Below are positions 7,837-63,108 of a stretch of DNA of 64,000 nt, one piece after another; position 1 is the first letter of the stretch; every line of letters starts with the position of its first letter. The notes below the pieces were generated by a model. It was given only the letters and a program-made list of their open reading frames with translations. It was not told the origin of the DNA and did no database searches. A program made the position numbers and the translations under genes. This stretch comes from Acididesulfobacillus acetoxydans (GTDB lineage Bacteria; Bacillota; Desulfitobacteriia; Desulfitobacteriales; Desulfitobacteriaceae), in NCBI RefSeq assembly GCF_902729405.1, contig NZ_LR746496.1, forward strand, positions 434,001-498,000, written 5' to 3'.

Positions 7837-8272
7837 TTTCCAGGCCGTTATGGCTCACTAAGGCATCATCTGCAAAAAGATCATATTCTAGACTAATACG
7901 TCCCCCCGCAACTGTCAAGTCATATTCCAATTTGGTTGTCAACACGCTCAGCCAAAGTGTTCCGAAAGACGTGACATATCTCCCCCGGTGCAAAATCCCC
8001 GGCTGAAATTCCTGTTTCAGCTCCGCCTTTCCCATGCGGTTTAAGACAATATGCTTTCCTTCGATGCGGAGGGAAGTTGTGACTCCCGCCATACCGGTGA
8101 CTTCCGATTCGCGGTACAGCAAATAAAAGGCCCCCTGCCGCTCGTAAAACGCACCTGTTGTGACAAATTCCAGCGTATCTTTTTCTCCTTCAGAGAATCC
8201 CTGTGTTCCGACGACTCTAATCAAGACGTTCTTTTTGCCCGCTATCCTCCCGTCCGCATCCGAATTCTCCAC
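7808..8272 (-). CDS. ywiB: DUF1934 (YwiB-like) protein
   Basis: A 154-residue beta-rich protein of the DUF1934 family, a calycin-like barrel of unknown function encoded upstream of argS in many Firmicutes. The family run LRIEGKHIVLNRMG and the ending LEYDLFADDALVSHNGLEI are clear. The start is a GTG at 8272 with AAAGGAGG upstream. The last residues (VNSFGLR) and the stop codon come from the end of a dispersed repeat, so the original C-terminus was probably replaced. The group II intron ends about 80 bases upstream. Confidence 0.85.
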   Translation of the reverse strand: MENSDADGRIAGKKNVLIRVVGTQGFSEGEKDTLEFVTTGAFYERQGAFYLLYRESEVTGMAGVTTSLRIEGKHIVLNRMGKAELKQEFQPGILHRGRYVTSFGTLWLSVLTTKLEYDLTVAGGRISLEYDLFADDALVSHNGLEIVVNSFGLR

Positions 8273-8354
8273 ATGCCCCTCCTTTCCAAGCCCTCTCCCC
8301 GCACCGGGGCCTGCGGGCCCGACTTAGCCAATTCCGGCTGCCGCTTACTAAATA

Positions 8355-10257
8355 ATCGGGTAGGAGGCTGGTCATTAATTGGCCAGCCGACCTCCCACAG
8401 CACCGTACGTACCGTTCGGTATACGGCGCCTCCAAAGTTTACACGTTATTTGGCAGAGTAGCATTGACTAAAACTGGGGTATCCTGCGCGTTCGATGCGT
8501 TTGTTGGATAAGGACATTGTCAAAATGTGGCTATGGGCTACTCGCCAATAGCCCTTTCTTGTGTTTGCCCACATCCATGCTTGCTCCTTCTTGATGCCAA
8601 GCTTCTGCAAGTTCGCGTATCGTGTGCGTACTCTCTTCCATCGTTTCCATGTGACCATCCGAATTCGACTTCGTAGCCATTCGTCCATCTTTCCGAGTAA
8701 CGCTTTGGCGTCTGCCAGTTTAAAGTAATTGGTCCATCCTCGGATGATGTAATTGAGTTTTGCCTTTCTCTCCTCGATTCCCATCCCGTTGCTCCGTCCG
8801 GTGACTTTCCGGATCTTGTCCTTTAGCTTCAGGATGCTTTTCGGGTGGATTCTCAGTCGTCCTCTTCCTTTGTGGATGTAGAAGCCGTATCCCAGATACT
8901 TGACTTTCCTCACGTGTGCCACGCTTGTTTTCTCCTTATTGACTCTGAGGAATAGTTTCCCTTCGATATAAGGAACAATATGGTCTAGCGTTCGCCGGGC
9001 CGCTTTCTCGCTTTTGCAGAAAATCATCATGTCATCCGCGTAGCGTACGAAGCGATGCCCACGCTTTTCTAGCTCGTGGTCACAGACGTTTAGCATGACG
9101 TTTCCAAGTAAGGGACTAAGGGGCCCCCCTTGGGGTACGCCTTCCGGACTTTCTTCAAATAGTCCGTCCACCATAATCCCTGCTCTGAGGAATTTATGGA
9201 TTAGGGATATGACTCGTCCATCTTTGATGGTGTCTGAGAGGATTTGGATGAGTTTGCTTTGGTTGACCGTGTCAAAGTATTTCTCCAAGTCCATGTCCAC
9301 GACGTAGACAAAGCCTTCTGTGATATGCCTTTGACATGCTCTTAGCGCGTCGTGAGCGCTTCGTTGAGGTCGGAACCCATAGCTGTTGTCTGAGAATTGC
9401 CTTTCGAAGATTGGCGAAAGGACCTGGGTTATGGCTTGTTGGATCAGTCTGTCCACGACGGTAGGGATTCCCAGCTTTCTCATTTTCCCGTTCTCTTTGG
9501 GTATTTCTACCCTCCGTACGGGTTTCGGACGGTATTTCCCGTCCCAGAGGGCTTGCAAAAGTTCATCCTTGTGTCCTTTCAGGTAGGGTAGAAGTTCGTC
9601 CACCTGCATACCGTCGATTCCACCCGCGCCTTTGTTCCCCTTCACTCTGTAGTAGGCTCGATTAAGGTTCTCGGCGCTGAGAATTTCCTCTAGCAGTTTC
9701 TCTGTCTGCTCGTCTGTGTTGGTGTTGTCGGTTTTGGTCATCCTGGGTGGCACGCACACTTCTGCATACTCTCTCTGTTCCGCAGATGACCTTTGCAGAT
9801 AGTCTTTAAAGCAAAGTTGTCTGTGTTTTAAATTACCACCTTCGGTAACTTTCATTGACCCACACCTCCTTTGGTTCCGCCCTTCCGTCGGTGTCCGGGA
9901 CACCTCTGTACTATGGCTTCTGCTGACTCCTCACGACAAATCTTGTTTCAACCGGGCTTCTTACTCCGTTTCCACCCGTCCGTGAGGCCTCCCACGGTAA
10001 GACGATTCACTTTCATTCCATGTCCCCGCAACATTTACGCTGACGTGTCCGTGTAGCTTTTGGGCTTCAACTTGTATGGCAGTCTTACCCCACATTTCGC
10101 GCCTAATATTGTTCGTGTTCCTCGGGGCGGAACTTTGCCGCCGGCTTCCTTCAGATTCCATCTCGCAATGGACACCCTTGCCTTGAGCTAATGGTTGGTC
10201 GCTACATACCCCCATAACGGACTTTCACCGTCAAGTTAATCGTCATGCGTGGCGCAC
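8355..10257 (-). mobile_element. Group II intron with reverse transcriptase
   Basis: On the minus strand the element starts GTGCGCCACGC at 10257, the normal group II 5' end. It carries a reverse transcriptase-maturase gene. It ends with a domain V hairpin (GCGCCGTATACC...GGTACGTACGG, about 8400-8440) and a domain VI hairpin with GGTCGGCTGGCC/GACCAGCC, followed by CCTACCCGAT at 8355. About 1.9 kb, apparently full length. Boundaries are from consensus ends only. It lies just upstream of the DUF1934-argS genes. Confidence 0.88.
8446..9855 (-). CDS. ltrA: Group II intron reverse transcriptase/maturase
   Basis: Intron-encoded protein of 469 residues needed for splicing and retrohoming. The catalytic motif is YADD in FVRYADDMMIF; other RT blocks are YRVKGNKGAGGIDGM, YGFRPQRSAHDA, VDMDLEKYFDTVN and GVPQGGPLSPLL. 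A maturase domain X follows (IIRGWTNYFKLADAK), and there is no HNH endonuclease domain after it. The ATG at 9855 has the strong site AAAGGAGG, so I prefer it to an upstream extension. The C-terminus ERAGYPSFSQCY is also found, inverted, in a remnant at 62151. Confidence 0.93.
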   Translation of the reverse strand: MKVTEGGNLKHRQLCFKDYLQRSSAEQREYAEVCVPPRMTKTDNTNTDEQTEKLLEEILSAENLNRAYYRVKGNKGAGGIDGMQVDELLPYLKGHKDELLQALWDGKYRPKPVRRVEIPKENGKMRKLGIPTVVDRLIQQAITQVLSPIFERQFSDNSYGFRPQRSAHDALRACQRHITEGFVYVVDMDLEKYFDTVNQSKLIQILSDTIKDGRVISLIHKFLRAGIMVDGLFEESPEGVPQGGPLSPLLGNVMLNVCDHELEKRGHRFVRYADDMMIFCKSEKAARRTLDHIVPYIEGKLFLRVNKEKTSVAHVRKVKYLGYGFYIHKGRGRLRIHPKSILKLKDKIRKVTGRSNGMGIEERKAKLNYIIRGWTNYFKLADAKALLGKMDEWLRSRIRMVTWKRWKRVRTRYANLQKLGIKKEQAWMWANTRKGYWRVAHSHILTMSLSNKRIERAGYPSFSQCYSAK

Positions 10258-10268
10258 CATTATATAGT

Positions 10269-10296
10269 AGTATAGCAAAAGTCGCGCCGGAAGCAA
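10269..10296 (-). promoter_or_regulatory. Probable promoter of the DUF1934-argS unit
   Basis: TTGCTT (10291-10296) and TATACT (10269-10274) are 16 bases apart on the minus strand. The intron begins about 12 bases downstream of the -10 box, so the transcript would start almost at the intron 5' end. Inference from box match only. Confidence 0.45.
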
Positions 10297-10639
10297 CCGC
10301 CAAGGGAGTTCTGTTCTGAAAGGGCACAACCCGTGGATACCCTGATCACTGATTGTGCCGTCGTCACAGAATTCTCTTCAGAGAGAGCGTTGGAGAGCGC
10401 AAAATCTTTTTTAAAGTGCAATACGACGGACAAACCGGTCCAATAACGCAGACCGGGAGCAGCCTCATGGCCTGCCGCTCCCGGAACCACCCTATCTCGG
10501 CTTGACCGTTGCCAAGCTGTCTTCAGACCCAGAACGGGAAATAATCACGTTTTCCCGGCTGGGCGTGTCCGCGCGGGGCTGCTAAGGAAAGCGGGAGGAG
10601 CACTCCCCCGTTTCCATGGCTGAGTGTATCCGCGCCGAG
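10297..10639. other. Intergenic stretch with hairpins
   Basis: No gene with family features is seen here. The stretch holds a hairpin CCGGGAGC/GCTCCCGG at 10453-10484 and, at 10592-10610, a GC-rich hairpin CGGGGGAGTGCTCCTCCCG reading on the minus strand after ypeB and followed by CTTTCCTT, which may terminate the sleB-ypeB transcript. The T-run is weak. Confidence 0.4.
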
Positions 10640-58053: not shown

Positions 58054-58659
58054 TTGAGTATACTTTCCGTCTTTGCTGAAACAGAAAAAGTCAAGGCCCA
58101 TATTGATGACCCCGAGGGAAGGCAAAGACTGAAAGTGCGTCTGATCGAATGCTTTCAAAAAGCCGGACGCCGTCCCTTTCTGATTCTCTGTATCGGAACA
58201 GACCGTTCAACCGGGGACGCGCTGGGGCCTCTGATAGGTACTCAGCTGGCCCGGGCGGGCCTGCCGCGCTTACATGTCTGGGGGACCTTGGATGAGCCTG
58301 TGCATGCCACTAATCTGGCGGAGAAGATTGCTTCCATAAGGGACTCCCTTCTCAACCCCTATATAGTGGCCATTGACGCCTCGTTAGGCAGGCTCGATTC
58401 AGTCGGCTGCGTCACGCTGGCAGACGGTCCCCTGCGGCCGGGAGCTGGAGTTCATAAGGATTTACCGGCCGTAGGCGACGTAAACATTACGGGAATAGTC
58501 AATGTCGGCGGGTTTATGGAGTATATGGTCCTGCAGAACACCCGTCTTAATCTTGTCTGGCACATGTCCGAACGTATTAGTGAGCTGATTGCCGACGCCT
58601 ACCTTCAGACAGAAGTGTGTGCGCCTGCCGAGGCGGAAGCTTTTCGGGAGAGACGCTGA
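58054..58659 (+). CDS. yyaC: YyaC-like spore protein (GPR-endopeptidase-like fold)
   Basis: A 201-residue protein with CIGTDRSTGDALGPLIG and VAIDASLGRLDSVG, then the GAGVHKDLPAVGD region, as in the YyaC family that is linked to spore protease folds. It is part of the soj/spo0J neighbourhood in Bacillus. The TTG at 58054 is the likely start; TTGACA at 58035 and TATACT at 58061 suggest a promoter nearby, which could move the start downstream. Confidence 0.85.
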   Translation: MSILSVFAETEKVKAHIDDPEGRQRLKVRLIECFQKAGRRPFLILCIGTDRSTGDALGPLIGTQLARAGLPRLHVWGTLDEPVHATNLAEKIASIRDSLLNPYIVAIDASLGRLDSVGCVTLADGPLRPGAGVHKDLPAVGDVNITGIVNVGGFMEYMVLQNTRLNLVWHMSERISELIADAYLQTEVCAPAEAEAFRERR

Positions 58660-61849: not shown

Positions 61850-62150
61850 ACTGCGCACCCTCCCCCGTGGAGTTGAGCGAACACCCCGGTGCGATACCCC
61901 GCTCCACCGTTGACCTCAACTCCCTTAAATTATATACTCTCCCGCCCCATAAAGAAAGCTCAATAGGCGCCGGAATCGCTCAAGTCAGCAGCCTCCGGGA
62001 TCCTTAAAGAATCGAAACCCGCCCTGAACCCCGTGGTTTCAACCAGAGGCAAAAGGCGGGTCTGTTCCCGGCTGAGCCACAAACCTGAGGAAACACTTGG
62101 AAAGGCTGCCGGCGCGCAGGCACCTCTTGACAATATCTCCGGCTTGCGCC
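61850..62150. other. Non-coding stretch with parA promoter region
   Basis: A TATAAT at 61929-61934 on the minus strand is a likely -10 box for parA; the -35 region is weak. Between it and parA an inverted repeat GGAGTTGAG/CTCAACTCC spans 61866-61923. Nothing else recognised. Confidence 0.4.
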
Positions 62151-62302
62151 CTATTTCGCAAGGTGACACTGACTAAAACCGAGGTGTCCTGCGCGCTCGA
62201 TTCCTTTGTCGGATCGTTGGAAGCGCCGTATACCGAACGGTACGTAAGCCGTGTACGAGGGGAAGGTTCAGCTGACCAAATAATGGTCAGCCTCCTACCC
62301 AA
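62151..62302. mobile_element. Scrambled group II intron remnant
   Basis: 62151-62213 on the minus strand encodes SDKGIERAGHLGFSQCHLAK, the C-terminus of the reverse transcriptase found at 8446. 62217-62302 on the plus strand is the matching domain V and VI (GCGCCGTATACCGAACGG, GTCAGCCTCCTACCCAACTAG-like end). The two pieces are in opposite orientation and joined at about 62215, so the intron end was inverted and the rest lost. Confidence 0.8.
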
Positions 62303-62310
62303 CTAGTACA

Positions 62311-62386
62311 GGGAAAGGGAAAGGGAAAAGGAAAGGGAAAAGGAAAAGGAGAGCGAAGCGCAAAGCGAAAGGGAAAGCACCGAAAC
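62311..62386. repeat. Purine-only GGGAAA-type tract
   Basis: About 55 bases of pure G/A in GGGAAA/GGAAAA units followed by a mixed GCGAAGCGCAAAGCG part and AAAGGGAAAGC. It lies directly downstream of the rsmG stop. Confidence 0.85.
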
Positions 62387-62388
62387 TT

Positions 62389-63108
62389 TCACATCAACGG
62401 CTTTTTCCCTGGGACCCCGGCTCTGCGCGGGTAACCAGCAGGCGTCTCCTTAACCTTTCGCACAAGAATCAACGCGCGGTGTTCAGCTTGCGGCCCCAAG
62501 CCAAAATCCCGTATGTCTTCGATCTCCCCTCCCAACTCCGCCAAAGCCCTGCCGCTCATCGCCACCTCTTCCGCCGCCCGCGTCCCTTTTAAAGCAAAAA
62601 AAAGGCCACCCCGTTTCAGAAGCGGAAGCACATACTCGAGAACCACCGGCAGTACGGCAACACCTCTCGCGGCGGCACTGTCAAATCGGCCCCGCGCTCC
62701 GCCGACATACCCCAGATCTTCCGCCCGCATCTGTAAACATTCCACCTGCTTTAAACCCAGCTTTGCGCACACCGCTTTCAGAAAAGCAACTTTCTTCCCC
62801 AGAGAATCCACCAACGTCACCTTCAGATCCGGCACAGCGATTTTCACCGGAATGCCGGGAAAACCGCCACCCGTACCCACGTCACAAAACCTATCGCCCA
62901 ACTCGTACCCCGCCAAAACCAGAGAATCCAAAAAATGCTTCACAATCACATCGCCCACTGATGTAATCCCGGTCAAATTCACACGGGCATTCCACTCCAA
63001 CAACATCTCCGCATAAACGGAAAACTGTTCCACTTGTTCCTCATTGAGAGATAGTCCAAGTTTTCCCTCAGCCATCTCCGCCAGGCGAACCATTTCCTCA
63101 TTCCACAA
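62389..63108 (-). CDS. rsmG: 16S rRNA m7G527 methyltransferase
   Basis: A 239-residue SAM-dependent methyltransferase of the GidB family that methylates G527 in 16S rRNA. The SAM loop is FCDVGTGGGFPGIPVKI and the family segment YAEMLLEWNARVNLTGI is present. The TTG at 63108 has GGAGGCGG upstream and overlaps the mnmG stop. It has a short basic C-terminal tail. Confidence 0.95.
   Translation of the reverse strand: MWNEEMVRLAEMAEGKLGLSLNEEQVEQFSVYAEMLLEWNARVNLTGITSVGDVIVKHFLDSLVLAGYELGDRFCDVGTGGGFPGIPVKIAVPDLKVTLVDSLGKKVAFLKAVCAKLGLKQVECLQMRAEDLGYVGGARGRFDSAAARGVAVLPVVLEYVLPLLKRGGLFFALKGTRAAEEVAMSGRALAELGGEIEDIRDFGLGPQAEHRALILVRKVKETPAGYPRRAGVPGKKPLM

Follow-up and report, generated by a model that had tools for sequence, protein, structure and literature searches.

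A decayed group II intron end between rsmG and parA of Acididesulfobacillus acetoxydans with a 74-bp block probably flipped in place

Introduction

Among the truncated group II introns described in bacteria, the TeI3g fragment of Thermosynechococcus is reported to keep about 340 nucleotides (nt) of the 3' part (PMC2882425), and template switching at inverted repeats is described as replacing a local stretch of DNA by its reverse complement (PMC8604942). Here, we describe a decayed group II intron scrap of about 180-200 nt of 3' end in the rsmG-parA interval of Acididesulfobacillus acetoxydans, found in a 64,000-nt stretch of contig NZ_LR746496.1 (positions 434,001 to 498,000; assembly GCF_902729405.1). 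This whole stretch is called the window, and positions are those of the window unless stated otherwise. In the scrap, the end of a reverse transcriptase (RT) gene and intron domains V and VI stand in opposite orientation. Judging from the alignments presented below, the likely explanation of the remnant is that 74 bp corresponding to 8436-8509 of an intact copy in the same window were flipped once in place, with a 2-nt filler.

Results

Comparison of 61859-62600 with the region of the intact intron (8201-10400) by blastn yielded two matches in opposite orientation, with expect values (E) given for a 14.5-kb comparison set. Positions 62217-62300 align plus/minus with 8435-8358 (66/84 identical, E 4e-14), and 62152-62214 align plus/plus with 8447-8509 (50/63 identical, E 2e-10). 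In a whole-genome search, the domain V-VI piece alone matched full copies at E 2.8e-12 or 6.3e-11, and by blastn the homology of the remnant pieces to the family of the intron at 8355-10257 is above chance. The first piece (segment D, 62217-62302, plus strand) comprises a degenerate domain V and domain VI in sense orientation, with 79% identity to 8358-8435 over 62217-62300. The second (segment B', 62152-62214, minus strand) is the inverted end of the intron-encoded protein (IEP), that is, the last 20 codons and the stop; the C-terminus reads SNKRIERAGYPSFSQCYSAK-stop in the intact intron and SDKGIERAGHLGFSQCHLAK-stop on the minus strand of the remnant. The minus-strand RT end adjoins the plus-strand domain V-VI, with the 2-nt filler CG (62215-62216 in the alignment) at the right break point. 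These matches bear out the claim of an earlier note on this DNA that an RT C-terminus and domain V-VI are joined in opposite orientation. The note also called them closely related to the intron at 8355-10257; the relation holds, and the closeness amounts to 79% identity in both pieces.

An inversion in place predicts that, left of B', the 11-nt spacer between the IEP stop and domain V is found reversed, followed further left by the preceding RT codons in normal orientation. Both parts were found there, ungapped and at natural spacing: the inverted spacer (segment C', 62141-62151, minus strand) with 5/11 identical positions and 10/11 matches in purine/pyrimidine class, and the RT codons from just upstream of the inverted block (segment A, 62121-62140, plus strand, sense) with 14/20 identical and 19/20 in class. 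The inverted block thus appears to have its natural flanks on both sides, D on the right and A with C' on the left. Jointly, A (20 nt) and C' (11 nt) match at 19/31 identities and 29/31 class positions. With the intron and the remnant excluded, the window offers 123,260 other positions for this pair; the identity value was reached at 2 of them, the class value at 0 and both together at 0; when 10, 15, 25 or 30 nt of A were used, both values were reached at 1, 0, 0 and 0 positions, respectively. No position in the intron matches A better than this one, and one antisense position equals it; a local-alignment shuffle test of 62099-62151 against the intron of the window gave a fraction of 0.001 for A.

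The earlier note placed the remnant at 62151-62302, an extent that covers the opposed pieces and sets the left limit too far right: intron sequence is well supported to 62121 and perhaps reaches about 62099. Within 62099-62120 (plus strand, sense) a gapped RT match with a deletion of about 7 nt can be drawn, and its identity as RT sequence is uncertain because the segment touches the edge of a dispersed repeat that stops at 62098.

A model composed of A, the inverted block BC and D scores 179 against the remnant; leaving out A lowers the score to 157, and leaving the block uninverted lowers it to 84. None of 2000 shuffles of A reached 179 (best shuffle, 174), nor did any of 734 other 70-nt intron stretches substituted for A; those scoring 164-177 overlap A, the best of 706 non-overlapping stretches scored 163, and the high scores are all located at A itself. 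A (20 nt), C' and B' align ungapped, with 25 mismatches in all (20 transitions, 5 transversions); small insertions appear in the alignment of domain V.

The domain V hairpin of the intact copy is absent from the predicted minimum-energy fold of the remnant. The domain VI helix GCTGACC...GGTCAGC is kept in the same predicted fold, and the 3' end of the remnant, CCTCCTACCC, aligns to that of the intact copy. An Rfam search of the remnant at E up to 1 returned no family. Domains I-IV, the RT core and the full IEP are unrecognisable in the remnant, in which recognisable coding sequence is limited to the last 20 codons with their stop and to some 20 nt preceding the block. A group II intron without its RT core and 5' domains is not expected to splice or move. 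Without the domain V hairpin in its predicted fold and without an Rfam match, the remnant is very probably dead as an element. The odd 3' arm of its domain V, GCCGTGTACGAGGGGAA, was also considered as a contribution from another intron class, making domain V chimeric. This candidate was rejected: at up to 1 mismatch the arm was matched only here among 61 genomes, and plain decay is more likely.

The intact reference intron (8355-10257, minus strand) matches Rfam families RF00029, RF02001 and RF01998. Its IEP (8446-9903; 485 amino acids) matches TIGR04416, and its sole Pfam matches at E up to 0.001 are to the RT and maturase domains PF00078 and PF08388. It is one of nine full copies in this genome (G000), whose identity is shown as 100%; this near-identity suggests recent activity of the family. 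The 3' flanks of the nine copies vary from site to site. In domain V-VI these copies are 77-79% identical to the remnant and the introns of genome G007 85%. When the comparison is limited to domain VI, two scraps in G001, the only further genome of the genus in the comparison set, reach 97% (35 nt) and 92% (36 nt). Since these others are closer to it than the full copies of its own genome, the remnant probably derives from an older or different intron subfamily.

Partial matches in the genome, the remnant included, occupy 11 rows at 10 loci, two of the rows being weak (E 5e-5 and 0.007). One is a second inverted relic (G000:C1:2644446-2644528; positions 1501-1583 of locus L131), in which intron positions 922-974 run straight into 884-852 read on the opposite strand. 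Retained flanks, compared by eye at L131/L132, gave 11/40 on the left, 8/37 then 9/36 for an in-place flip and 12/36 for direct continuation, none above chance, and the in-place model is therefore not carried over to this relic. At the Rfam gathering threshold, no group II family was found at 12 partial loci of G000 and G001 (L110, L112, L120, L125, L126, L128, L130, L131, L133, L033, L048 and L089), and these accordingly look like scraps and not like ends of complete introns; the partial loci L124, L129, L132 and L134 lie outside that scan. Among the matches listed, with at most 7 candidates scored per genome, relatives hold 5' ends, 3' ends, internal pieces and full copies, and G001 has no full intron copy among the 6 matches found. 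The six G001 loci (L033, L048, L089, L110, L112 and L120) are scraps of 22-52 nt, each holding just a 5' end, just a 3' end or a portion of domain V.

The G001 rsmG-parA site is without the insert, and the gap between the two genes is 175 nt there versus 533 nt here. Gene order with relatives, a comparison proposed by the earlier note, is conserved in G001, where seven open reading frames (ORFs), from mnmG to the ORF at 58054, keep the same order and relative orientation; no sign of a larger rearrangement was seen at the locus. Present in 56/61 genomes, rsmG has parA within reach at 12 of the 30 rsmG loci listed (this genome and 11 relatives, the latter with gaps of 116-418 nt), and parA is not within reach at the other 18, all in genus g6. 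The whole 181-nt remnant, used as query, matched this genome only among 61, with no match in the 60 relatives, and the junction pattern at up to 3 mismatches was found in this genome only among 82 searched. The same arrangement as part of a complete intron in relatives, which the earlier note held would speak against an inversion scar, is thus not seen. A search of plasmids for the arrangement at E up to 1e-5 gave no match, and an exact 24-mer had none in viral contigs.

Besides the intron scrap, the extra DNA in this interval contains one copy of the dispersed repeat (62002-62098) and a purine-rich tract (about 62310-62378). This tract, of GGGAAA/GGAAA type, lies beside the scrap near the rsmG stop and is absent at the G001 site. 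The repeat, also present at L084, L085, L086, L091, L092 and others, is dispersed, intergenic, about 110 nt long and confined to the genus, with at least 8 matches in G000, at least 15 in G001 and 0 in 39 other genomes, some of the matches being only 28-40 nt. By eye, its consensus contains short inverted repeats; Rfam returned no match over the repeat at the loci scanned.

Discussion

The in-place flip has to be weighed against several observations that speak against it. C' taken alone is not significant: 306/123,380 window positions reach both of its values, and its shuffle fractions run from 0.28 to 1.0 across all nine intron ends, none of them significant. C' is counted as supported only together with A. 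For A, the shuffle test against the eight other intron ends gave 0.015 (L102), 0.043 (L100) and 0.056-0.24 for the rest, and the match was spotted by eye before testing, which makes its figures somewhat optimistic. The inverted repeat near the break points is only 5 bp long, and the right junction retains both of its copies, as a clean exchange within the repeat would not. Finally, the junction comes from assembled sequence, and an assembly artefact might have joined two places; the remnant pieces show about 21% divergence from the full copies in the genome and so are not a mis-join of those copies, and an artefact is very improbable.

In LINE-1 elements, twin priming yields an inverted upstream piece followed by a sense 3' piece, and no sense-oriented upstream sequence is expected left of the inverted segment. 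A 5'-truncated insertion of this kind, in which D was reverse transcribed, a second primer copied B' in the opposite direction and the two cDNAs were joined, would fit the order of the pieces, and short 3'-end-only scraps of the intron family are indeed present in G001. Left of B', however, it predicts no sense upstream sequence and no reversed spacer, and both are seen there at natural spacing; moreover, 5'-end-only scraps occur too, so loss is not limited to the 5' side, and the order in the other inverted relic of this genome (L131/L132) is wrong for such a route. The natural spacing of A, C', B' and D led us to reject twin priming, which we hold to be improbable. It is more doubtful still that inverted junctions would be recurrent in relics of this intron (2 of 10 partial loci in this genome) and would stem from strand switching by the intron's own RT at insertion, as a bacterial counterpart of LINE twin priming. 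Two separate intron scraps lying head to head, through adjacent insertion or recombination between copies, would suit a genome with many partial copies (11 rows at 10 loci, in addition to the 9 full ones) and a site that also carries a dispersed-repeat copy. Such an origin leaves unexplained why A, C', B' and D are arranged and spaced as in a single flipped intron end, and the genes flanking the site on either side are in identical order in G001; we give it as little credence as twin priming. The earlier note proposed that the junction records recombination near the origin, perhaps between intron copies. This proposal is not upheld, with seven ORFs collinear in G001 and the break points inside one intron end. 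Because the pieces fit a single flipped intron end, no second intron copy is needed, and the conserved gene order and natural piece spacing led us to reject recombination between intron copies or across the origin.

Under the in-place flip, a group II intron related to the nine-copy family would once have sat between rsmG and parA, and about 180-200 nt of its 3' end would have survived the loss of the greater part. The 74-bp block, which spans the sequence between a point within the final IEP codons and the beginning of domain V, would have been flipped in place, with the 2-nt filler added at one junction. Two mechanisms could have produced the flip: breakage at two points followed by religation, or a short-range template switch in the course of DNA replication, close to the short inverted repeat TCCAA/TTGGA found at the ends of the block. 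The intron end would otherwise have decayed by substitutions, mainly transitions, and by small insertions in domain V. The 5-bp inverted repeat stands at the block ends in nine intron ends (ends that were chosen by these letters), and it hints at template switching. With a repeat of this length and both copies at the right junction, template switching is unproven, and because the product keeps both copies there, break and religation is equally possible. The earlier note had supposed that part of the intron end was inverted and the rest then lost; the inversion is supported and sharpened to a 74-bp in-place flip, which may have preceded or followed the loss.

Most likely, the remnant reflects ordinary intron decay and is a fossil of DNA damage or of a copying error, not of a chromosome rearrangement. 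The case suggests that, alongside truncation and deletion, small in-place inversions contribute to the way bacterial group II introns decay, and it cautions that an opposed order of RT and domain V need not imply recombination between copies or chromosome rearrangement. The reach of the finding beyond the rsmG-parA locus is little.

Among the literature titles searched, none concerned inverted group II intron relics, and a search for "group II intron" with "twin priming" returned only papers on retrotransposons such as LINE-1. The pieces of the remnant align to the 3' end of an intact intron that matches known group II families (RF00029 / RF02001; IEP TIGR04416). Unlike members of these families, the remnant has no recognisable 5' part or RT core, its domain V hairpin is predicted to be lost, and a 74-bp block is inverted. 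Described truncated group II introns of bacteria are likewise partial intron remains (PMC4424553, PMC2882425), but they are presented as products of truncation and large deletions, the word "inversion" occurring 0 times in either main text, whereas the remnant contains an inverted block. In the yeast cases described in PMC8604942, the repeat arms are longer than 9 bp and the spacers a few bases, in contrast to the 5-bp repeat, the 74-bp block and the presence of both repeat copies at one junction here; the remnant nevertheless resembles the spacer inversions described there in that a local stretch at short inverted repeats is reverse-complemented.
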